From: Bordetella parapertussis
Lineage (GTDB): Bacteria > Pseudomonadota > Gammaproteobacteria > Burkholderiales > Burkholderiaceae_C
NCBI GenBank assembly: GCA_945900695.1
Contig: CAMDJU010000034.1
Coordinates: 1 to 14,692 of the forward strand
DNA length: 14,692 nucleotides
Reading direction: 5' to 3'
Part shown: positions 728 to 10,702 of the stretch, one piece after another
How the letters are laid out: every line of letters begins with the position of its first letter
Numbering within the stretch: position 1 is the first letter of the stretch
The notes under the pieces: generated by a model
Databases searched by the model: none
Told to the model about the DNA's origin: nothing
The model's input: only the letters and a program-made list of their open reading frames with translations
Translations under genes and position numbers: made by a program

Positions 728-1570
728 ATGTCTGTCGGGTCTGTAGAGCTCACACACACCATTACACCCGCTTGGGGGCCAGGAGATCCTGTCACCCATC
801 GGGGTCAACAACCCGCCGCCCCAACCCCCGCCGCCCCCGCTCATGCCAAGGTCACCATTCAATGGGCCCGGCATTTGGATGAGGTGCGCGAAGCACAACG
901 ACTTCGCTTTCAGGTGTTTGCCAACGAGTGGGGAGCCCACATCGACAGCGCCTTGCCCGGGTACGACATCGACGTCTTTGATGACTATTGCGAACACCTG
1001 CTGGTGCGCGCTGGCGTTGACGGGCCGGTGGTGGGCACCTACCGGGTGCTGGTGCCCACACAAGCCGCGCGCATGGGCGGCACCTATACCGACACCGAGT
1101 TTGACTTGGTGCGATTGCGCAGTTTGCGCCCAGGCATGGTGGAGTTTGGTCGCAGCTGTGTTCATCCAGAGCATCGCCAAGGCCCTGTGATCATGGCCTT
1201 GTGGGGCGCGTTGATCGCGTTCATGCAGCAAAACCATTTTGAAACCATGCTGGGCTGCGCCAGCATCCCCATGTTGCACAGCGGCGTGGTCAACACCCAG
1301 GTGGCGGCCAGTTTGTGGGCGCAATTAAAGGCCTCGCATCTGGCCCCGATTGAATACCGCGTCAGCCCACGCTTTGCCTTGCCCTTGCAAGAAGCCCAGG
1401 CCGATTTGGCGGTCGAACCCCCCCCATTGATTCGCGGATACCTCCGTTTGGGGGCGAAATTATTGGGCCCACCGGCCTGGGATCAGGACTTCAACAGTGC
1501 TGATTTGCCCATGATGTTGTGGCTCAAAGACATCCCCGAAAAATACCGTCGCCACTTTTTGAGAACCTGA
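728..1570 (+). CDS. olsB: OlsB-like GNAT-family N-acyltransferase
   Basis: The 280-residue protein resembles the OlsB/COG3176 family. OlsB transfers a 3-hydroxyacyl chain from acyl carrier protein to the alpha-amino group of ornithine, the first step of ornithine lipid synthesis at the inner membrane face. After a Pro/Ala-rich N-terminus (about 1-40) comes the acyltransferase fold: RLRFQVFANEW near 58-68, VGTYRVL near 102-108, EFGRSCVHPEHR at 139-150, and the C-terminal block RGYLRLGAKLLGPPAWDQDF with DLPMMLWLKDI at about 236-269, typical of OlsB. ATG at 728 is preferred over upstream in-frame starts because GGAG (719-722) sits 5 nt before it and ATG 683 would fall within the Pho-like sites. 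It overlaps the next gene by one base (TGATG). No OlsA-type second acyltransferase is in the window, so the acyl acceptor is inferred. Confidence 0.85.
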   Translation: MSVGSVELTHTITPAWGPGDPVTHRGQQPAAPTPAAPAHAKVTIQWARHLDEVREAQRLRFQVFANEWGAHIDSALPGYDIDVFDDYCEHLLVRAGVDGPVVGTYRVLVPTQAARMGGTYTDTEFDLVRLRSLRPGMVEFGRSCVHPEHRQGPVIMALWGALIAFMQQNHFETMLGCASIPMLHSGVVNTQVAASLWAQLKASHLAPIEYRVSPRFALPLQEAQADLAVEPPPLIRGYLRLGAKLLGPPAWDQDFNSADLPMMLWLKDIPEKYRRHFLRT

Positions 1571-2343
1571 TGCATTACCGCGCCGTATTCATCTCTGACA
1601 TCCACTTGGGAACGGCAGGTTGCCAAGCACATGCCCTGTTGGACTTTTTGAAGTCGCATGAAAGCGACTACCTCTACCTGATCGGCGACATCGTCGACGG
1701 CTGGCAACTCAGGCGCAATTGGTACTGGCCACAGGCCCACAACGACGTGGTTCAAAAGCTATTGCGCCGGGTGCGCAAAGGCTGCCATGTGCTGTACATA
1801 CCGGGCAACCATGACGAGTTTGCGCGTGAGTTCACCGACCAGCACTTTGGCGGCATCGAGGTGATGGAAGAGGGCTCGCACACCTTGCTCGATGGCAGAA
1901 AACTGTGGCTCACCCATGGGGACTATTTCGATGCGGTGGTGCAATATGCCAAATGGCTGGCCTATGTGGGCGATTATTTGTACGAGTTCACATTGCGCAT
2001 GAATCGGCACTTCAACCGAGTGCGGGCCAAGTTGGGCATGCGGTACTGGTCGTTGTCGGCATTTTTAAAGCACAAGGTCAAAAAGGCTTTGAGCTATGTC
2101 TCAGATTTTGAAAAAGCCGTTGCCCACGAAGCCGCTCGGCGTGGCTACCAGGGCGTGGTTTGCGGCCACATCCATAAAGCGGAAATGCGCGTCATCGACG
2201 GCATTTTGTATTGCAACGATGGCGACTGGGTCGAGAGCCGCACGGCCCTGGTGGAGCACATGGACGGGCGTTTGGAATTGATCTACTGGGATCAGTTGAT
2301 GGACAAAACCTTCGTCCACGCCTCTGCCCTGCAGACGGCGTGA
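1570..2343 (+). CDS. plcP: Metallophosphoesterase, PlcP-like phospholipase C (LpxH superfamily)
   Basis: The 257-residue COG2908 metallophosphoesterase carries all five metal-site blocks: SDIHLG (D10, H12), GDIVDGW (D40), GNHDE (N80, H81), THGD (H116) and CGHIHKAEM (H200, H202). Automatic annotation would probably say UDP-2,3-diacylglucosamine hydrolase. However, the WYWPQAHNDVVQKLLRR block, the HGDYFDAVVQYAKWLAYVGD block, and the GDWVES and EHMDGR patterns are what I recall of the PlcP group (for example Sinorhizobium SMc00171). PlcP cleaves phosphatidylcholine or phosphatidylethanolamine to diacylglycerol during phosphate starvation. Its neighbours (OlsB-like, LplT-like, a glycolipid-type glycosyltransferase) favour PlcP over lipid A synthesis. 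The start ATG overlaps the stop of the upstream gene, indicating translational coupling. The family is certain; the PlcP choice is an inference. Confidence 0.82.
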   Translation: MHYRAVFISDIHLGTAGCQAHALLDFLKSHESDYLYLIGDIVDGWQLRRNWYWPQAHNDVVQKLLRRVRKGCHVLYIPGNHDEFAREFTDQHFGGIEVMEEGSHTLLDGRKLWLTHGDYFDAVVQYAKWLAYVGDYLYEFTLRMNRHFNRVRAKLGMRYWSLSAFLKHKVKKALSYVSDFEKAVAHEAARRGYQGVVCGHIHKAEMRVIDGILYCNDGDWVESRTALVEHMDGRLELIYWDQLMDKTFVHASALQTA

Positions 2344-2359
2344 GGCCATTGCGCAACCC

Positions 2360-3592
2360 ATGAGCCCGGGCTTTCATCGCTTGATGGGGGCCCAAGGTCT
2401 GGCCGGTTTGGCCGACAACGCCTTGCTGCTGGTGGTGATTGCCATGCTCATTGAGCAGTCCAAAGCAGCCCACTGGATCCCTTTGTTGAAGCTGGGTTTT
2501 ACCCTGTCGTATGTGGTGCTGGGGCCATGGGTCGGGCGTTTGGCCGATGCCTGGCACAAACCCCGGGTCATGCAGTGGGCCAACGCCCTCAAGTTGATGG
2601 CGGTCTTGTCTATCTTGCTGGGGCTGGATGTGATGCTGGCCTATGTGTGGGTGGGCTTGGGTGCGGCCTTTTACTCACCCGCCAAATATGGCTGGATCAC
2701 CGAGGTCGAGCCGCCACACCGGCTGGTCAATGCCAACGCCTGGATTGAAGTCAGCACGGTGAGTGCGGCGGTTTTTGGTGTGGCTTTGGGCGGCCTGCTG
2801 ATCAGCGATACCTGGACCCATACGCAGCTGGCCCAAACCATCCACGCCTGGGCGTGGTGGGACAGCCGTTTTGGCGCTTCAGTGGTATTGATTTTTTGCT
2901 TGTATGTGGCGGTGGCCTGGATACAGCGCGGCATCCCGCACAGTGGCGTGCCTTGTCTGTCGCGGGGTTGGCACTTGGGTCAGGTGTGGCGCGACTTTTG
3001 GATCGATCAAAAAACCTTGTGGACCGACCCCCTGGGCCAAGTCAGTTTGGCCGTGACCACTTTGTTTTGGGGGGTGGGTGCGACCATGCAATTGCTGGTG
3101 CTGCTGTGGTGCCAGCAGGTCTTGGGTTTGGGTTTGGACCAGGGCGCTTATTTGCAAGCGTGTACCGCCGTGGGGGTGGTGCTGGGCGCTTGGCTGGCGG
3201 GGCGTTGGGTCCCTTTGCACCAGGCCACGCGTGTGCTGGGCTTGGGCGTGGTGTTGGGCCTGTTGTTGCCGATCATGAACGCAGTCCATTCTTGGCCTTT
3301 TGCGTTGGGTGTGATGCTGTTCGTCGGGGTCATCAGCGGTTTGTTTGTGGTGCCGATGAACGCTTTGTTGCAACACCGAGGCGTGCGCTTGCTCAGCGCA
3401 GGACGCTCCATCGCGGTGCAAAACGTGAATGAAAATGCCAGCACCGTGACGATGATGGGTGTTTACAGCGGCTTGTTGTACTTGCAATGCCCGTTTGAAA
3501 CCATCACCTGGATATTGGGTGGATTCATTGCCATCTGCATGGCCTTGGTTTGTGGGCTGCACGCACGCCGATCGCGTGCGTGCGCCCTTTGA
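2360..3592 (+). CDS. lplT: LplT-like lysophospholipid transporter (major facilitator superfamily)
   Basis: This 410-residue multi-pass membrane protein resembles LplT, which flips lysophospholipids across the inner membrane so they can be re-acylated. Shared blocks are GLADNALLLVVIAML at 16-30, GPWVGRLADAWHKPRVM at 55-71 and GLGAAFYSPAKYGWITE at 99-115, with alternating hydrophobic segments to about residue 400. E. coli LplT is about 397 residues, so length fits a lone transporter; the PlsC-like acyltransferase often paired or fused with LplT is absent. It starts 16 nt after the phosphoesterase stop, with no strong ribosome site, and is probably the last gene of the operon. In this context the cargo could be a lysolipid left by phospholipid breakdown or a lyso-ornithine lipid; both ideas are inference. 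Confidence 0.83.
   Translation: MSPGFHRLMGAQGLAGLADNALLLVVIAMLIEQSKAAHWIPLLKLGFTLSYVVLGPWVGRLADAWHKPRVMQWANALKLMAVLSILLGLDVMLAYVWVGLGAAFYSPAKYGWITEVEPPHRLVNANAWIEVSTVSAAVFGVALGGLLISDTWTHTQLAQTIHAWAWWDSRFGASVVLIFCLYVAVAWIQRGIPHSGVPCLSRGWHLGQVWRDFWIDQKTLWTDPLGQVSLAVTTLFWGVGATMQLLVLLWCQQVLGLGLDQGAYLQACTAVGVVLGAWLAGRWVPLHQATRVLGLGVVLGLLLPIMNAVHSWPFALGVMLFVGVISGLFVVPMNALLQHRGVRLLSAGRSIAVQNVNENASTVTMMGVYSGLLYLQCPFETITWILGGFIAICMALVCGLHARRSRACAL
3559..3583 (+). terminator. Strong hairpin at the 3' end of lplT, possible bidirectional terminator
   Basis: GCACGCACGC (3559-3568) and GCGTGCGTGC (3574-3583) form a perfect 10-bp stem with a 5-nt loop inside the last codons of lplT, just before the convergent ugd stop. 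Only 11 nt separate the two stop codons. No T-run follows on either strand, so if it ends transcription it is not a canonical intrinsic terminator. Confidence 0.4.
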
Positions 3593-3603
3593 ACTTCACG
3601 GCC

Positions 3604-5049
3604 TCAGCTGGCGGCCAAGCTGGGTGACGCGGGCTCGCTTGTCGGTTGTGGCTGAGACACGCGGCCAATGCCGTGGTAGGTGAAAGACTCTTGCTCCATG
3701 CGCTGCGGATCAAACAAATTGCGGCCATCAAAGATCAGCGCTTGCGCCAGTCGGCTGCGCAGTTGTTGGAAATTGGGGCTGCGATAGGCTTTCCATTCGG
3801 TCATGATGAGCAAGGCTTGCGCGCCATCGGCCACGTCCATGGGGTCGTCATGAAAGCTCAATTGGTCCCACAGTTCGGGCACATCCATCAAGTCCTCTTG
3901 CAAGGCCAACTGCCCGCTCTCCATGGCCACGGGGTCGTGCACCTGCACCCGCGCACCGGCGCGCAGCAAACCGCTGATCACGGTGCGGCTGGGGGCCTCG
4001 CGCATGTCGTCGGTTTCGGGTTTGAAGGCCAATCCCCAGACGCCAAAACTCATGCCGCTCAAATTGTCGCCAAAGTGGGCCAGCACCTTGTCCAAAATGC
4101 GGTGTTTTTGGCGCTGATTGACGTGCTCCACCGCGCTCAAAATTTGCATGGCAATGCCTTGTTCAATGCCGGTGCGGTGCAGTGCTTTCACATCTTTGGG
4201 AAAGCAAGAGCCACCGTAGCCCGTGCCCGCATACAAAAAGCTGTAGCCAATGCGGGGGTCAGAGCCCATGCCTTGGCGCACAGACTCAATGTCCACGTTC
4301 AAGCGTTCGCTCAAATTGGCCAACTCGTTCATGAAAGAGATGCGGGTGGCCAACATGGCGTTGGCGGCGTATTTGGTCAATTCAGCCGAGCGCTGGGTCA
4401 TCACCAAGGTGCGTTCGTGGTGGCGGTTGAAGGGCGCGTAGAGGTTGCGCATTTGGCCCAGCGCCCATTGGCCCGATTCATCGCTGGACACGCCGAGCAC
4501 GATGCGGTCAGGGCGCATGAAGTCTTCGACCGCCGCACCTTCTTTTAAAAACTCGGGGTTGGAGACCACGGCACAACGCAGGCGTGTATTGCCTTTTGAA
4601 GCGTCGCTGCCCGCCAAGTCAATGCCACGTTGCTGCAACTCGCTGGCAATGGCGGCTTGCACCCGCTCGGCTGTGCCCACGGGAACGGTGGATTTATTCA
4701 CCACCACTTTGTCGCTGCGCATCCATCGGCCAATGTCGCTGGCCGCTTTCAAGGCGTAGGACAGATCGGCGCTGCCGTCATCTTGGGGCGGTGTGCCCAC
4801 GGCAATGAAGATCACATCACCATGGCAAATCGCTAGGGCCGTGTCGGTGGTGAACTGCAAGCGGCCTTGTTTCAGGTTGCGCACCACCAAATCATCCAGG
4901 CCGGGTTCGTAAATCGGCACCACGCCGCTGTTGAGGCTGCGGATTTTGTCCGCCGCCAAGTCCAAGCACACCACATCGTTGCCCAACTCAGCCAGGCAAG
5001 TCCCGGTGACCAGACCCACATACCCACTGCCAATGATGGTGATTTGCAT
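3604..5049 (-). CDS. ugd: UDP-glucose 6-dehydrogenase
   Basis: The 481-residue cytoplasmic enzyme oxidises UDP-glucose to UDP-glucuronate with two NAD+. It shows the N-terminal Rossmann motif GSGYVG at 7-12, [15 protein letters not shown] at 84-98, NKSTVPVGT at 118-126, [15 protein letters not shown] at 163-177 with the catalytic Glu block, and [16 protein letters not shown] at 275-290 with catalytic Cys282. The C-terminal UDP-binding half is complete, followed by a short Pro/Ser tail. The start is supported by AGGAG (5060-5056) six nt upstream. It lies 113 nt downstream of psd on the same strand and converges on lplT. UDP-glucuronate can feed exopolysaccharide, lipid A sugars or glucuronosyl diacylglycerol; the nearby GT4 gene makes the last attractive but unproven. 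A weak PhoB-like region lies upstream. Confidence 0.95.
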
Positions 5050-5115
5050 TTACCACTCCTGTAAAACATCGATCAAAACGATGTCTTGAGTCTCGGGAAA
5101 ATGCGTTAAAAATAT

Positions 5116-5144
5116 GTGAAGCTTTTAAGAACTTATCGTGACGG
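5116..5144 (-). promoter_or_regulatory. Weak PhoB-box-like region upstream of ugd
   Basis: Reading the minus strand from 5144, units CCGTCAC, AGTTCTT and GCTTCAC follow each other with 11-bp spacing and AT-rich spacers (GATA, AAAA). The best 18-mer (5133-5116) matches the PhoB consensus at 11 positions, only moderately above chance. Ten nt further is CGCATT (5105-5100), one base different from the CACATT found in the same place at the two stronger sites. Confidence 0.28.
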
Positions 5145-5162
5145 TCGGGCGTTCGGAGTGGG

Positions 5163-6038
5163 TCAAGGGCTGGGTGGGTAGGTCATCAAGGGTTGGCCCA
5201 TTTTCAAAGGGCTGCCGGTGTCTAAGCCCGGGAAAAGCGCAAATCCTTTGGGCGCAAAGACCAAAATGGTCGAGCCGTGTTGAAACCAACCCATCTCTTG
5301 GCCTTTTTCAACGTCGTGAACTGAGTCAAAACGGTGCGGTCCCTTGTAACGGGTGTGCAATACAGTATCGATGGCGTGCAATCGGATGCTGGCCACCAAG
5401 ATGGCAGCCACCGGCACCAAGGCAATCGGGTGGTGGTCGGCGGTGGTCATGTGCAATACCGCGCGCTCGTTTTTGCAAAACAACTTCTCCACCCGCTGCA
5501 GCGCAATCGGATTGACGTTCCAGGTGTCGCCGTTCAGGTAGTCGACACGGTGCAATCGTCCGTCAAACGGGGCGTGAAAGCGGTGGTACATGGCCGAGGT
5601 GATGCGGATGGTCGCGTACACCCCATCGTGCCAGGGACTGGCCGCCGCTGCGTCGCCAAACAAGTCTTGCAGCGCGTAAGGGAAACCTTTGGCCTGAAAA
5701 ACCTGCCCGGCTTTGACCTCGCCACAACTGCCCAAGATGCCATCGCAGGGGCTGGTCAAGATGTTCTCGCGCATGTCCACGGGCCGGGCCCCGTCTTTGA
5801 GTTCGCGGATGAAAAACTCATGCAAGCTGCTGAATTGGCGTTCGCGTGCTTCGCTCAGATCGATGTCCGTGAACAAGCGCCATATGTATATGGATGCACG
5901 GCAAATCCATGGGTGTTTGATTTGGCTGAACCAGCCCATGAAATGGGTCAAGGCCAAGCGGGGAATTCGGTTGGTCAGTAAAAAGTTCAAATCTTCTTGG
6001 GCGCCCAAGCCCCGCAACCAGTGTCGAACCGTCATCAT
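5163..6038 (-). CDS. psd: Phosphatidylserine decarboxylase proenzyme
   Basis: The 291-residue inner membrane enzyme decarboxylates phosphatidylserine to phosphatidylethanolamine. The proenzyme cleaves itself before a Ser that becomes the pyruvoyl group. The site is HGST at 254-257 (Ser256), so the usual LGST has His at the first place; the cleaved Gly-Ser bond is intact. The other triad residues are present: Asp99 in SPCDGIL and His155 in MYHRFHAPFDG. Length is slightly below E. coli Psd (322) because both ends are shorter. Two ATGs stand in tandem (6038 and 6035); AGGA seven nt upstream supports 6038. Only 47 nt separate it from the divergent aminotransferase gene, and a PhoB-like site overlaps its start codon. 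Confidence 0.95.
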   Translation of the reverse strand: MMTVRHWLRGLGAQEDLNFLLTNRIPRLALTHFMGWFSQIKHPWICRASIYIWRLFTDIDLSEARERQFSSLHEFFIRELKDGARPVDMRENILTSPCDGILGSCGEVKAGQVFQAKGFPYALQDLFGDAAAASPWHDGVYATIRITSAMYHRFHAPFDGRLHRVDYLNGDTWNVNPIALQRVEKLFCKNERAVLHMTTADHHPIALVPVAAILVASIRLHAIDTVLHTRYKGPHRFDSVHDVEKGQEMGWFQHGSTILVFAPKGFALFPGLDTGSPLKMGQPLMTYPPSP

Positions 6039-6062
6039 TGTTTCATCCTAATGAAATACAAA
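6029..6062 (+). promoter_or_regulatory. PhoB-box-like promoter of the aminotransferase, overlapping the psd start
   Basis: CCGTCAT (6029-6035), CATT and GTTTCAT (6040-6046) form an 18-mer matching the PhoB consensus at 13 positions. Exactly 10 nt later is TACAAA (6057-6062), four of six matches to TATAAT. Transcription would start near 6069, leaving about 17 nt of leader with AAGGGA before ATG 6086. The box covers the psd start codon (6036-6038), so bound PhoB could act as a roadblock on psd. Confidence 0.5.
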
Positions 6063-6085
6063 AGAAGCTTCTGAAAGGGAAGCAC

Positions 6086-7756
6086 ATGTTTGAAGAAAAT
6101 GGTTTGTCGTCATGGGTCATCTTGGCCTGTGCCTTGGCTGCGTTGTACTGGGGCCCCATGCTGTGGCAGCGTTTGCAGCTGTCGTTGGCCAAGCATCCGT
6201 CGATGGCAGGTCACTTGCGTTGGGCCAAGCGTTTGGCCAACTGGGCACCGGCCTATGACTACCCGGGCGAGCAATGGTTTCGGGTGGATCACGCCCCTGA
6301 GGCTGTGGGTGTGCAGCGCCAGCAAGCTTTGCAGCGGCTTGGCAGTCTGTTGGTCAAGCGCAGCCCCAAAACTTTGGCGCTGACCCAAGCCACCAAGCCC
6401 ATGGTGTCGGACATGCAACTGATTTCGCGCTACCGGGTGCCCTTTCAGTTTCAAAAATTCCTGAGTGACAACCTGCAAATTGGCAGCTACTGGGCACAAA
6501 GCAAAGGGGTTTGGGTGGCCGATGCTGATGATCAGTGGCACATGGATGTCACGGGCAGTTATGGCGTGAACTTGTTCGGGGCTGACTTTTACAAAAGCTG
6601 CATGCAAGAGGGCATGGACTTGGTGCACGATCTCGGCCCCGTGTTGGGTGCTTATCACCCCTGTGTGCAAGAAAACGTCGCCATGTTGTGTCAAATTTCC
6701 CGCAAAGATGAGGTTTCGTTTCACATGTCGGGCACCGAGGCGGTGATGCAAGCGGTGCGTTTGGCGCGCTACCACACGGGCAAGCGCAAAGTGGTGCGCT
6801 TCACCGGTGCTTATCACGGTTGGTGGGACGATGTTCAGCCCGGTCCCGGCAACCCCATGCCCCCCTCCAATGACACGCTCACGCTCAATGAGATGCACCC
6901 CCAAACCCTCAAAGTGCTGCGCCAGCGCAAGGACATTGCCTGCGTCTTGGTCAACCCTTTGCAAGCCATGCACCCCAACAAGGCCGCGCCCAGCGACTCG
7001 ACCTTGATCGACGGCTCGCGCCAGGTGTCTTATGACAAAGCCGCCTATGCCAAATGGTTGGGCGAGTTGCGCCAAGTGTGTGACGAAAAAGGCATTGCAT
7101 TCATCATGGACGAAGTGTTCATGGGCTTTCGTTTGGGCTTGGGTGGGGCGCAAGCGTTTTTCGGTGTGGATGCCGACCTGGTCACCTACGGCAAGACACT
7201 GGGCGGCGGTTTCCCGGTGGGCGTGCTCTGCGGCAAGGCCCCATGGATGCGCCGCTTTAGCGAAGAAAAGCCGGGCAACATTTGTTTTGCACGTGGCACC
7301 TTCAATGCCCATCCGGGTGTGATGGGCGCGATGAATGTGTTTCTCAAGCGGGTGCAAAGCCCCGCGATTCAAGCGGTCTATCAAAAAATGGAAGGCTTGT
7401 GGATCGATCGCATGAAGCAGCTCAACGATCAACTGCTGGGCCAAGACTTGCCCGTGCGCGTGGTGGGCATGGCCACTGTCTGGACCGTGGTTTACGAGGT
7501 GCCCAGCCGCTACAACTGGATGCTGCAGTTTTACATGCGCGAACAAGGCATAGCCCTCAGTTGGGTGGGCACGGGGCGTTTGATCTTCAATTTTGCTTTT
7601 GAGGATGAGCACTTTGCCGATTTTTGCAAGCGGTTTATCCAAGCGGCTCAAGCCATGCAAAACGATGGCTGGTGGTGGACTGCCCAAGGTCAAAGCAATC
7701 GGACCATTCGGCGTGAAGTCATGCGCGAAATGGTCCGAATCAAGTGGGCTTTGTAA
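6086..7756 (+). CDS. Membrane-anchored class III PLP-dependent aminotransferase, HemL-like, substrate unknown
   Basis: The 556-residue protein belongs to fold-type I, class III aminotransferases, closest in style to glutamate-1-semialdehyde aminomutase. Visible landmarks: SGTEA at 215-219 (phosphate binding), FTGAYHGWWDD at 239-249, FIMDEVFMGFR at 339-349 with Asp342, TYGKTLGGGFPVG at 367-379 with the PLP lysine Lys370, and ARGTFNAHP at 402-410. It is not ordinary HemL: that enzyme is about 430 residues, while this one has about 110 extra N-terminal residues with a hydrophobic segment at about 10-23 that probably anchors it to the membrane, and a Trp-rich C-terminal region. ATG 6086 is chosen because AAGGGA ends 5 nt upstream. 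It diverges from psd and lies among lipid genes behind a PhoB-like promoter, suggesting amination of a membrane-linked or lipid-derived carbonyl. The substrate is unknown. Confidence 0.85.
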   Translation: MFEENGLSSWVILACALAALYWGPMLWQRLQLSLAKHPSMAGHLRWAKRLANWAPAYDYPGEQWFRVDHAPEAVGVQRQQALQRLGSLLVKRSPKTLALTQATKPMVSDMQLISRYRVPFQFQKFLSDNLQIGSYWAQSKGVWVADADDQWHMDVTGSYGVNLFGADFYKSCMQEGMDLVHDLGPVLGAYHPCVQENVAMLCQISRKDEVSFHMSGTEAVMQAVRLARYHTGKRKVVRFTGAYHGWWDDVQPGPGNPMPPSNDTLTLNEMHPQTLKVLRQRKDIACVLVNPLQAMHPNKAAPSDSTLIDGSRQVSYDKAAYAKWLGELRQVCDEKGIAFIMDEVFMGFRLGLGGAQAFFGVDADLVTYGKTLGGGFPVGVLCGKAPWMRRFSEEKPGNICFARGTFNAHPGVMGAMNVFLKRVQSPAIQAVYQKMEGLWIDRMKQLNDQLLGQDLPVRVVGMATVWTVVYEVPSRYNWMLQFYMREQGIALSWVGTGRLIFNFAFEDEHFADFCKRFIQAAQAMQNDGWWWTAQGQSNRTIRREVMREMVRIKWAL

Positions 7757-8365
7757 TCAGTGTGATTTGACGTGTTCCATGGGGTCTAAAAACTGACCCT
7801 TGGCCAAGTAAAAAGGTGCGCGATAGTACATTTTGACATCGTGGAATGGGTCGGTGATGATCTTCAGCGCCCAAGCCACGCCGGCCATCAAACCATCTTG
7901 TACCCACAGCTGCAGCACCCTGAAGATCAAGCCGGCGGCGCCCAAAAACAACCAAGCCATGGCAGTCATGCGAACCGGTGTGTCTTCGTAAGCTTCAGGA
8001 ACAGCCCAGGTGAGGTAGTTGGGCATCCAATAGGCGATCACAGGAATGGCGGCGCAAATGGTGAGCAAAACCACTTTGCGGCGCAGGTTGTAGCCGACCT
8101 TGATCTCTTCTTTGTGCTCATGGGTGGCGTTGTTCACGGCATCAAAGCCTTTGGGTTCAAAAAAGAAGTGACCGGCTTGGCGCGTGGTCATGGACACCAG
8201 CCAAGCGATCAGGGCTGACACCACGGGGTCGATGAACAAATAGGCATACGCCACCAAAAAGGACAGGGCGCTGACCAAATGCAAAGCTTGGTTGATGCGA
8301 CTGTGGTGGTAGTAACGGTGGTCATCCCAACGTTGGGTGCGCAAGGTTTGCAACAATTCTTTCAT
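7757..8365 (-). CDS. Small multi-pass membrane protein, possibly Mpo1/DUF962-like
   Basis: The 202-residue protein has about four hydrophobic segments (roughly 30-45, 47-60, 98-113, 134-152) and many histidines: DDHRYYHHSRINQALHLV at 14-31, QAGHFFFEP at 63-71, THEHKEE at 81-87 and DPFHD at 172-176. The N-terminal H-x-R-x-NQ-x-LH pattern and the later GHFFFEP recall the Mpo1/DUF962 family. Yeast Mpo1 is an iron-dependent dioxygenase that shortens 2-hydroxy fatty acids. The likeness is from memory of motifs and is only moderate; another membrane di-iron or histidine-box enzyme is possible. ATG at 8365 is supported by AGGAG six nt upstream. Its stop abuts the convergent aminotransferase stop with no gap. 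It shares a divergent promoter region with the glycosyltransferase and has its own PhoB-like box. Confidence 0.7.
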   Translation of the reverse strand: MKELLQTLRTQRWDDHRYYHHSRINQALHLVSALSFLVAYAYLFIDPVVSALIAWLVSMTTRQAGHFFFEPKGFDAVNNATHEHKEEIKVGYNLRRKVVLLTICAAIPVIAYWMPNYLTWAVPEAYEDTPVRMTAMAWLFLGAAGLIFRVLQLWVQDGLMAGVAWALKIITDPFHDVKMYYRAPFYLAKGQFLDPMEHVKSH

Positions 8366-8413
8366 GGGTTCTCCTGAGGTCGTTGGGTAATGAGGTGATA
8401 AACAATAAACTGA

Positions 8414-8447
8414 AATGTGGCGAATTTCAGTGAAATTTTGATGACAC
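8414..8447 (-). promoter_or_regulatory. PhoB-box promoter of the Mpo1-like gene
   Basis: On the minus strand GTGTCATCAAAATTTCAC (8447-8430) matches the PhoB consensus at 14 of 18 positions. Exactly 10 nt later is CACATT (8419-8414) as a -10 element. The predicted transcription start is near 8407, about 40 nt before the start codon at 8365, leaving room for the AGGAG ribosome site. It shares TGTCATCAAA and the same spacing and hexamer with the divergent site for the glycosyltransferase. Confidence 0.62.
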
Positions 8448-8460
8448 TGCAAAATTGCAG
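8447..8460. repeat. 14-bp perfect dyad between the two Pho-like boxes
   Basis: CTGCAA-AA-TTGCAG is a perfect inverted repeat that starts at the edge of the Mpo1-side PhoB box. It may be a site for a second regulator of the divergent pair, or chance. Confidence 0.3.
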
Positions 8461-8486
8461 CCTCGTCAGGTCCTGGGAGCATGCGC

Positions 8487-8520
8487 TTGTCATCAAACTG
8501 TGATGTGTGGGTGTCACATT
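8487..8520 (+). promoter_or_regulatory. PhoB-box promoter of the GT4 glycosyltransferase
   Basis: TTGTCATCAAACTGTGAT (8487-8504) matches CTGTCATAWAWCTGTCAY at 15 of 18 positions, the best Pho-like site in the window. Exactly 10 nt later is CACATT (8515-8520), the same hexamer at the same distance as on the divergent side. In PhoB promoters the box replaces the -35 and ends about 10 nt before the -10. The predicted start of transcription is near 8527. Confidence 0.68.
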
Positions 8521-8580
8521 AATGGCATGCAAGCAGATGCCTCGATCGATGTGGTTTGTTTCAACGGGTCTTCGTCACCG

Positions 8581-9729
8581 ATGCGCATCGCGGTCGTCAC
8601 CGAGACCTATCCACCGGACATCAACGGGGTGGCCCATACCCTGAGCAAAACCGTGGAGGGCCTCAAAGCCCGCGGCCATGCGCTGTGGTTGATACGTCCG
8701 CGTCAAAACAATGACACGGTGCAAGCGGGTCGATCATTGAACGATGAAACGCTGGTGCGTGGCATGCCAATCCCGTTTTACAAGCATTTGAAAATGGGCT
8801 TTCCCGCTAAACGGGCATTGACGCGTTTGTGGACTTTGCACCGCCCGGATGTGGTTCACATCGCCACCGAAGGGCCCCTGGGGTGGTCTGCCTTGCAGGC
8901 AGCCAAAAAACTCAAATTACCGGTGAGCAGTGACTTCAGAACGAATTTTCACGCCTACAGCGACCACTATGGCATTGGCTGGCTGCGCGGGGCCATCATG
9001 AATTACATGCGCAAATTCCACAATGCCGCACTGGCCACCATGGTGCCCACACCGGTGCTGGCCCATGAGTTGGCAGCCGTGGGGTTTGAGCGTTTGCATG
9101 TGGTGCCCCGCGGTGTGGATACCGATTTGTTCAACCCCATGCGCCGCTCCCCTGCCTTGCGCTCGGAGTGGGGTGCCAGCGATGAAACCCTGGTGCTGTT
9201 GTGCGTTGGCCGCTTGGCCGCAGAAAAAAACCTGAGCGTGGTGGTGTCCACCTTTGAGCGCTTGGCGACTGTGAATGCCAACGTCAAATTGGTTTTGGTG
9301 GGGGATGGCCCCCTCAAGCCCAGCTTGCAAAAAAACCATCCGCAGGTGTTGTTTGCTGGTTTCAGAACGGGTGAAGACTTGGCCCAACACTACGCCAGTG
9401 CGGACATGTTTTTGTTTCCCAGTTTGACCGAAACCTTTGGCAACGTGACCTTGGAGGCCATGTCCAGCGCCTTACCGGTGGTGGCCTACCGGCATGCAGC
9501 GGCGGCCGAGTTGATCCGCCCTGGCGAGAACGGTCAGCTCATAGAAGCGGGTGACCAAGAGGCATTTGAGCGAGCAGCCATCGAATTGGCTGATATGCAC
9601 ACCTTGCGCGCCCAAATGGGGCAAGAGGCCCGCATCACTGCACTGGGCCAGGCCTGGCCTTTGATTTTTCAAAAAACCGAGAAGATTTTTCGCCAGGTCA
9701 TCCAAGACCACGCCCTACAGCAGGCATGA
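8581..9729 (+). CDS. GT4-family glycosyltransferase, glycolipid or mannosyltransferase type
   Basis: The 382-residue retaining GT-B glycosyltransferase has the N-terminal ETYPPDINGVAHTL at 8-21, the hinge VPRGVDTDLF at 175-184, CVGRLAAEKN at 208-217 with the conserved Arg and Lys, GDGPLKPSL at 241-249 and the E-x7-E donor site TETFGNVTLEAMS at 283-295 (Glu284, Glu292). It resembles MgtA/SqdX/Agt-like enzymes, which put sugars on diacylglycerol or mannose on lipid carriers. Agt-type enzymes are known to be co-located with plcP and to use UDP-glucose or UDP-glucuronate; donor and acceptor here are inferred. ATG 8581 gives the normal family N-terminus (MRIAVV) although its ribosome site is weak; an in-frame ATG at 8527 lies right at the predicted transcription start. 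It stands alone behind a strong PhoB-like box. Confidence 0.88.
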   Translation: MRIAVVTETYPPDINGVAHTLSKTVEGLKARGHALWLIRPRQNNDTVQAGRSLNDETLVRGMPIPFYKHLKMGFPAKRALTRLWTLHRPDVVHIATEGPLGWSALQAAKKLKLPVSSDFRTNFHAYSDHYGIGWLRGAIMNYMRKFHNAALATMVPTPVLAHELAAVGFERLHVVPRGVDTDLFNPMRRSPALRSEWGASDETLVLLCVGRLAAEKNLSVVVSTFERLATVNANVKLVLVGDGPLKPSLQKNHPQVLFAGFRTGEDLAQHYASADMFLFPSLTETFGNVTLEAMSSALPVVAYRHAAAAELIRPGENGQLIEAGDQEAFERAAIELADMHTLRAQMGQEARITALGQAWPLIFQKTEKIFRQVIQDHALQQA

Positions 9730-10177: not shown

Positions 10178-10603
10178 TTAAGGCTTGATATAGGCAAAAC
10201 CCTCGCGGGCTTGCAAGCGGCCAATGCGCACCACGCCTGAAGGGGTGAAGTCCGCGTCCATGTTGAACTGGGATTTGTTGAGATTGCGGTTTTTCAAGGT
10301 AATTTCGCAAATTTCAAACCTCACGTGGCGTGCCTTCAAGGCCGATACCAAGGCGGCGTAATCAATATTGGGGTTTTGTTTGTCTTTGGCGCCATCCATC
10401 AAAAAATCCACTCCTTCGGCATGGGTGACCACCACAATTTGTGTGTCGGGGGCCACATCCAAATGGTTGCGAATATTGCGCAAGCCCTTGGTGGCTTGGC
10501 TGGCAGCATGGTCAATGTGATAAACCACTTTATCGCCGCTGGTTTGTGCGAAGGCAGCGAGGTGGGTCAAGGCGCAAAGCACCAAGGTAAAAAATGTTTT
10601 CAT
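10178..10603 (-). CDS. Secreted DsrE/DsrF-like protein
   Basis: The 141-residue protein begins with a clear Sec signal peptide (MKTFFTLVLCALTHLAAFA, predicted cleavage before Gln20), followed by a DsrE-like alpha/beta fold: KVVYHIDHAASQATKGLRNI at 25-44, a hydrophobic strand QIVVVTHAEGVDFLM at 55-69 and YAALVSALKARHVRFEIC at 82-99. DsrE/DsrF relatives take part in sulfur transfer, but single-domain periplasmic members of this kind have no settled role. After the signal only Cys99 remains as a possible thiol. Two starts compete: ATG 10603 with no close ribosome site, and TTG 10609 with AGGG seven nt upstream, which would add Met-Ala; the signal peptide is kept either way. It stands alone between unrelated genes. 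Confidence 0.8.
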   Translation of the reverse strand: MKTFFTLVLCALTHLAAFAQTSGDKVVYHIDHAASQATKGLRNIRNHLDVAPDTQIVVVTHAEGVDFLMDGAKDKQNPNIDYAALVSALKARHVRFEICEITLKNRNLNKSQFNMDADFTPSGVVRIGRLQAREGFAYIKP

Positions 10604-10702
10604 GGCCAAATCATAACCCTGTGTTGGCGTGCCTCAGTGGAAAACGCACTGTTCGTGCGACCACGTTGCCAAGGGAATGTGCAGTGGGTTAGCCGGCGTG
10701 TT

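Follow-up and report, generated by a model that had tools for sequence, protein, structure and literature searches.

What do eight lipid-related genes do together when they lie side by side between positions 728 and 9729 of a 14,692-nucleotide stretch of DNA (the window; contig CAMDJU010000034.1, recorded as Bordetella parapertussis), and how much of the block is conserved as a unit? An earlier note, made from the letters alone, had read the block as an island that exchanges phospholipids for phosphorus-free lipids under phosphate starvation, and this interpretation was partly supported. All eight families were present where the note had placed them in open reading frame, Pfam, and NCBIfam scans of the window, with LplT, Ugd, and Psd above curated cut-offs. 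Comparison of sequences with related loci supported the gene identities, their clustering, the Pho boxes, and the PlcP and Agt2 groupings. The block is very probably a PhoB-controlled lipid remodelling island that acts by PlcP, Agt2/Ugd, and OlsB. The conserved unit was a trio composed of Psd2, a phosphatidylserine-decarboxylase paralogue (5163–6038, − strand), AT3, an N-terminal transmembrane (TM) helix joined to a class III pyridoxal phosphate (PLP) transaminase (6086–7756, + strand), and Mpo, a helical, His-rich membrane protein of 202 residues (7757–8365, − strand), usually accompanied by a glycolipid glycosyltransferase (GT). The trio is likely an integral, PhoB-controlled, lipid-modifying part of the island.

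The related loci were collected by an alignment of AT3 relatives, which retrieved 80 named loci, many on contigs that end early. The full set of eight families was found in 4 of the 80 (L002, L038, L060, and L079), and the view of the eight genes as one conserved unit was thus not borne out. Gene order beyond this strain gave a divided answer, since the order of the core was kept far beyond it and the full eight-gene order recurred only in L002. OlsB, PlcP, LplT, and Ugd joined the trio lineage by lineage. Where each flank measured 3.5 kb or more, the complete trio was present in 54/54 named loci, 25/25 loci of a further Burkholderiales draw, 3/4 of a class draw, 12/12 of a phylum draw, and one Sphingomonas plasmid. 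The overall value was 95 of 96 loci, or 93 of 94 with near-identical loci counted once. In the sole exception, L120, the region lacked Psd and its Mpo was divergent (29%).

The further draw consisted of 33 Burkholderiales genomes, including the centre genome G001, which was picked because it carries AT3. One genome repeated a named locus, which left 32 non-repeat loci. Within 10 kb of AT3, these loci contained Psd (32), Mpo (32), an Agt-type GT (27), PlcP (18), OlsB (4), LplT (3), and Ugd (2), whereas none of these families occurred in any of the 29 anchored Pgi regions that served as control in these genomes (of 31 such regions, 2 lacked an anchor at 38% identity). By this comparison, the clustering exceeds chance. 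AT3 was present in 34/300 Burkholderiales genomes, 9/274 genomes of the class draw, and 21/299 of the phylum draw; the three draws overlap, and each contains the centre genome. Within the 300 Burkholderiales genomes, PlcP was held by 31 of the 34 with AT3 and by 117 of the 266 without it (Fisher p 6e-8). The loci include three duplicate pairs (L040/L083, L044/L048, and L063/L065), and counts with repeats removed are used where stated.

Loci L063, L066, L068, L074, and L078 place the trio in Polynucleobacter and Limnohabitans as well. Two record labels did not fit, L065 as Akkermansia muciniphila, with an AT3 near-identical to that of Limnohabitans L063, and L020 as Bordetella parapertussis. 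Both are probably mislabelled metagenome bins.

The link to phosphate was examined through Pho boxes, using the consensus CTGTCATNNNNCTGTCAT given in the available part of PMC8528852. Sites were scored out of 14 and counted at 11 or more (three or fewer mismatches). A Pho box of 12/14 (8487–8504, + strand) lies in the 215-bp spacer between the divergent Mpo and GT4 genes. An 11/14 Pho-box-like site (6029–6046, + strand) overlaps the psd2 start by 10 bases and enters the 47-bp spacer between the divergent psd2 and AT3 genes. A 10/14 site upstream of olsB (667–684, + strand) is too weak alone. The best score upstream of plcP, whose start overlaps the stop of olsB by one base, was 8/14.

In the relatives, with repeats removed, counted sites lay upstream of GT4 in 45/63 named loci and 14/26 further relatives, and upstream of Mpo, which has its spacer in common with GT4, in 48/71 and 15/30. 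The corresponding values were 13/77 and 6/33 for AT3 and 14/73 and 6/32 for Psd, which have a common spacer, 8/19 and 0/4 for OlsB, and 10/31 and 1/2 for Ugd. Control genes had such a site in 5 of 259 cases. A half-site spacer of 4 bases was matched in 60 of 92 GT4 upstream regions, and spacers of 0–3 and 5–9 bases gave 2 to 13. In distant loci, Pho boxes were found upstream of Psd (8/21) and AT3 (10/24), with scores up to 13/14. The significance of these sites is only a guide because the relatives are not independent. By this comparison, the Pho boxes at the two divergent promoters are conserved, and PhoB control of both is predicted.

In addition, genes of the Pho regulon (PhoX, PstS-like, Phn, PhoU, PPK1, Ppx, and GDPD) lay within 10 kb of the module in 11 of the 32 further-draw loci and in 0 of 29 regions around Pgi, or in 1 of 31 once the unanchored L179, which holds PPK2, is included. 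The labels were given by eye and then by a Pfam scan of one example each, with PhnI outside the scan. The scan bore out PhnD, PPK2, 5'-nucleotidase, PhoX, PhoU, PhnG, PhnH, PPK1, Ppx, PhoD, alkaline phosphatase, and GDPD, and it bore out PhnE, PstS, and PhnM only to the superfamily. These neighbours and the conserved Pho boxes, together with the PlcP and Agt2 groupings described below, upheld the reading of the locus as lipid remodelling under phosphate starvation.

The PlcP-type phosphoesterase (1570–2343, + strand) was 54% identical to PlcP of P. aeruginosa (PA3219 type). Its identity as LpxH, which the earlier note had named as one of three findings that would undo its reading, was ruled out by a sub-cut-off score with TIGR01854 (40.2 versus 190.35 bits) and by a tree of 50 rows (31 PlcP and 19 LpxH) that split 100/100. 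The window protein fell within the PlcP clade, alongside the P. aeruginosa and S. meliloti proteins, and a separate LpxH above the cut-off was present in 30 of 33 AT3 genomes. On this grouping the window phosphoesterase is assigned to PlcP, and the release of diacylglycerol is predicted. The tree contained 19 of 30 retrieved LpxH loci, those that passed a motif filter, including three flagged long rows. Every third, fourth, or sixth relative was taken for the trees, open-ended or broken frames were omitted, and identical pairs from overlapping loci remain in the PlcP/LpxH and GT4 trees. In P. aeruginosa, the pair PA3219-PA3218 makes a glycolipid under phosphate stress, according to the available part of PMC8528852; the identification of locus L258 with this pair rests on gene order and annotation. 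On pSymB of S. meliloti (L257:4956–7272), a PlcP homologue is followed by a major facilitator superfamily (MFS) transporter, which resembles PlcP then LplT of the window by order alone.

The GT4 glycosyltransferase (8581–9729, + strand) was 32% identical to Agt1 and 46% identical to the P. aeruginosa GT adjoining plcR (L260), which is presumed, from gene order and gene numbering, to be PA0842, Agt2. In the GT tree, 22 core GTs grouped with Agt2, and 14 plcP-adjacent GTs with some distant ones grouped with Agt1 (support 95/88, with a warning by the tool of long branches meeting). No Agt1 was found in the window. The Agt2 of P. aeruginosa makes glucuronosyl-diacylglycerol from uridine diphosphate (UDP)-glucuronate, as stated in the available part of PMC8528852, and the window GT4 is predicted to be a glucuronosyl-diacylglycerol synthase of the Agt2 type. 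Ugd, a UDP-glucose 6-dehydrogenase (3604–5049, − strand; PF03721/PF00984/PF03720), passed the curated cut-off as a nucleoside-diphosphate-sugar dehydrogenase (TIGR03026, 416 bits). Since GT4 groups with Agt2, a user of UDP-glucuronate, Ugd fits as the supplier of this substrate, and the same inference in the earlier note was sound. The adjacency of Ugd is only suggestive of UDP-glucuronate use by GT4.

Psd2 passed the cut-offs for phosphatidylserine decarboxylase (PF02666, 188.5 bits over 22; TIGR00163, 159 over 111.75). The cleavage motif was HGST, not LGST, in 118 of 119 copies (108 of 110 distinct copies), and LGST was found in 11 of 11 long housekeeping Psd copies examined. Two catalytic-type motifs were kept in 118 of 121 copies. 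Psd2 and the long housekeeping Psd were 30–35% identical and formed separate clades (100/100) in a tree that held these two forms, with the short-form Psd outside it. These features mark Psd2 as a distinct paralogue. The earlier note had counted two members that fit no known step; such members exist, and their number is three because Psd is a distinct paralogue and another Psd is present in each of the 33 genomes.

AT3 gave one match per genome at strict thresholds, and 9 of 10 genomes also had one or two distant class III matches (26–33%). By Pfam and structure searches, AT3 belonged to the group of the MycA aminotransferase domain and HemL. The MycA domain (6kfm) was the best solved match by profile (2e-60 versus 1e-41 for HemL) and the top Protein Data Bank (PDB) match by single sequence. 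The AlphaFold model of AT3, with a mean predicted local distance difference test (pLDDT) score of 87, matched 6kfm with E 3e-30 and a template modelling score of 0.84 on the target. The cut-off for HemL was missed (TIGR00713, 151.7 versus 527.3 bits). MycA aminates a β-ketothioester with glutamine as amino donor, according to the available part of PMC3870968. A cytoplasmic catalytic domain is suggested for AT3 by the charges on either side of its single TM helix.

Mpo contained the invariant residues H16, H20, H29, H66, and E70, and its structure model was helical (pLDDT 88). Its role as an iron oxygenase is only an inference, because it is drawn from a sub-threshold match to the Mpo1/DUF962 family, the invariant His and Glu residues, and the helical model. 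In P. aeruginosa, a gene annotated as Mpo1-like (L258:6420–6702) lies one gene past plcP-agt1, a faint echo of Mpo beside GT4.

The partners of the trio varied by lineage, and all were lipid genes, namely Agt2-like GTs, Agt1-like GTs (48–52% identical to P. aeruginosa Agt1), a long GT4 of ~890 residues with an extra N-terminal region, a PmtA-like N-methyltransferase, and OlsF. In one group (L268:3674–6355, L278:2719–5385, and L119:10671–13379), the long GT4 took the place of Agt next to the trio, and its N-terminal half had no Pfam name in L268, the copy scanned. The PmtA-like gene adjoined Mpo in some lineages and scored 136 bits with NF045882, below the cut-off of 390; the loci that carry it appear to be alphaproteobacterial (only L261 is named). 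OlsF beside the trio passed its cut-off in L268 and missed it in L114; beside L072 lay an OlsA-like gene that scored under its cut-off. On the Sphingomonas plasmid (L261), the order was Psd-AT3-Mpo-methyltransferase, with a serine palmitoyltransferase above the cut-off ~9 kb from Mpo. The stretch L261:14478–25593 also includes an acyl carrier protein (ACP) gene, and a sphingolipid link is possible for this copy.

Under phosphate starvation, PlcP would cleave phospholipid to diacylglycerol, to which the Agt2-type GT4 would add glucuronic acid from the UDP-glucuronate made by Ugd, and OlsB would begin ornithine lipid. The substrate, step order, and product of the trio are inferred as follows. 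AT3, anchored in the membrane with a cytoplasmic catalytic domain, would transfer an amino group onto a lipid that bears a keto or aldehyde function. Psd2 would take a carboxyl group off the same lipid family, and Mpo, a possible iron oxygenase, would prepare the substrate. The outcome would be an amine-bearing surrogate of phosphatidylethanolamine (PE), N-methylated by the PmtA-like enzyme in some lineages. An amine-bearing lipid is the favoured product, and it is probably phosphorus-free. Given a decarboxylase, a transaminase, an oxygenase, and an optional N-methyltransferase, the formation of an amine head group is the most parsimonious chemistry, and it is put forward tentatively. A more specific proposal, regarded as doubtful, is that the trio and the PmtA-like methyltransferase form a phosphorus-free mirror of the phosphatidylserine–ethanolamine–choline route, in which an iron membrane oxygenase would give a keto acid lipid, AT3 an amino acid lipid, and Psd2 an amine lipid, followed by N-methylation in some lineages.

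Several observations weigh against a phosphate-controlled island with the trio as its lipid-modifying part. The window alone cannot prove the Pho boxes because its two sites are not a significant excess: chance predicts 1.0, and at least two arose in 51 of 200 shuffles. Pho sites of PlcP were few (4/33 named, 4/17 further), LplT had no excess of Pho boxes (2/45 named, 0/3 further), and the excess in the psd2/AT3 spacer was modest in Burkholderiales (AT3, 13/77 and 6/33). Scrambled half-sites averaged 3.8 and reached 28 of 92 GT4 upstream regions. The related loci are non-independent samples. In the phylum draw the phosphate link is carried by the Pho boxes alone, because 0 of 17 loci had PlcP near the trio and 1 of 17 had Pho-regulon genes there. 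In Sphingomonas the trio instead has a serine palmitoyltransferase in its vicinity, and Agt is absent from the 10 kb around it. Mpo scored under the Pfam gathering threshold (PF06127, 21 versus 24 bits), and the match spanned only the part with the invariant residues. The OlsB part is tempered because ornithine lipids are not tightly phosphate-regulated in Burkholderia, according to the available part of a review (PMC11631085). Furthermore, Psd2 could be an ordinary phosphatidylserine (PS) decarboxylase.

This last point leads to a reading in which the trio serves phospholipids, a minority possibility that deserves weight. Psd2 would be a starvation isoform of PS decarboxylase that holds the PE level, AT3 and Mpo would trim or mark the acyl chains or head groups of PE, and the PmtA-like gene would make phosphatidylcholine. 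The Pfam assignment of Psd2 and its two catalytic-type motifs in 118 of 121 copies agree with this reading, as does the methyltransferase, whose best model was phospholipid N-methyltransferase (below the cut-off) and which was the only match in 3 of 11 genomes at E 1e-25. However, all 33 genomes hold another Psd, the long housekeeping form (11 genomes) is 30–35% identical to Psd2 with another cleavage motif, and extra phospholipid would be an odd need under phosphate shortage.

The likeness of AT3 to MycA supports a second alternative, which is judged rather improbable. AT3 would form β-amino acyl chains, and Mpo would shorten 2-hydroxy fatty acids by α-oxidation, which would place unusual acyl groups on the glycolipid or ornithine lipid. 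The MycA aminotransferase domain, the top match by sequence and fold, acts on a β-ketothioester, the Mpo1 family (PF06127) is named for 2-hydroxypalmitate, and the acyl carrier gene of Sphingomonas lies ~10 kb away. Against this, inspection by eye of the neighbour clusters that recur in the 80 named loci, with no dedicated search, revealed no acyl carrier or ketosynthase. Psd2 and the PmtA-like gene are left unexplained by it, and HemL is the next-closest relative of AT3.

Recycling of phosphate, with AT3 as a PLP lyase that would liberate the phosphate of the phosphoethanolamine split from PE by PlcP, is very unlikely. Phospho-lyases of the phosphoethanolamine kind have the class III fold, and PlcP was present in 31 of 34 AT3 genomes, but no phospho-lyase was named among the best 60 of 81 PDB matches of AT3, a soluble substrate needs no membrane anchor, and PlcP was missing from the 10 kb around the trio loci of the phylum draw. 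An accidental grouping of housekeeping envelope genes with no common role is highly improbable: OlsB, LplT, and Ugd were linked only in some lineages (4, 3, and 2 of 32) and the strands are mixed, but none of the 29 control regions held any member, and the modules were reshuffled yet close in other lineages, with common Pho boxes.

The remaining genes of the window complete the layout of the island. The mixed strands imply that it is no single operon, and the 3' ends of AT3 and Mpo adjoin. The N-acyltransferase gene (728–1570, + strand; PF13444, 107.4 bits over 22.4) would encode the first step of ornithine lipid synthesis. Its product missed the OlsB equivalog cut-off of NCBIfam (139 versus 350 bits) and is hence labelled OlsB-like only. 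On the OlsB side of L087, L104, and L105 lay another class III aminotransferase match, distant from AT3 (23–24%), which perhaps serves ornithine supply. The LplT-type lysophospholipid transporter (MFS; 2360–3592, + strand) scored 433.8 bits with NF008397, above the cut-off of 297. The flanking genes were ordinary-looking and included IlvD, a DsrE-like gene, glutathione S-transferase, a short-chain dehydrogenase/reductase enzyme, transaldolase, and Pgi. The DsrE-like protein (10178–10609, − strand; PF02635), with a signal-peptide-like start, adjoins the island.

The trio, found far beyond one strain with Pho boxes of its own, points to a lipid not yet assigned. Polynucleobacter and Limnohabitans are abundant in lakes, where the trio's product could make up an unrecognised share of the non-phosphorus lipid. 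If the proposed mirror route is true, Pseudomonadota would make a so far undescribed membrane lipid upon phosphate exhaustion. Full-text searches of open-access papers and passages of PMC9239053, PMC6445935, and PMC11631085 yielded no mention of such a trio; the search covered open-access texts, with subscription papers and supplements outside it. One paper retrieved, PMC10888616, deals with a gene of Bradyrhizobium that comes after an Mpo homologue in tag order and is not shown there to be AT3.

The closest known systems resemble the island in some features and differ from it in others. Mpo shares the H...H...GHxxxE pattern, seen by eye in its N-terminal half, with the 2-hydroxy fatty acid dioxygenase Mpo1/DUF962, whereas it falls below the family cut-off, has a longer C-terminal part, and is a putative oxygenase. 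Psd2 belongs to the phosphatidylserine decarboxylase family (TIGR00163), with catalytic-type motifs and a score above the curated cut-off, but it has HGST in place of LGST, a clade of its own, and a companion Psd elsewhere among the genes of 33 of 33 genomes. Among solved structures, AT3 comes closest in both sequence and fold to the aminotransferase domain of mycosubtilin synthase MycA (6kfm), whereas AT3 is stand-alone and membrane-anchored with an extra N-terminal region. The formation of ornithine lipid by OlsBA or OlsF has counterparts in the OlsB-like gene and in OlsF (L268) and the sub-cut-off OlsA-like gene (L072) beside related loci, although no olsA was noticed in the window and the OlsB equivalog cut-off was missed. 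A further close system is the PlcP-Agt1/Agt2 renovation pathway of P. aeruginosa, as described in the available part of PMC8528852. There, Agt1 adjoins plcP and Agt2 adjoins plcR, whereas in the window plcP is followed by lplT and the Agt2-type GT4 stands with the trio, with no Agt1. The two systems are alike in PlcP (54%), in the Agt2-clade GT4 (46%), and in Pho boxes of the same form. PlcP-Agt remodelling is already known and the island is a variant of it, in which the trio is the new element.

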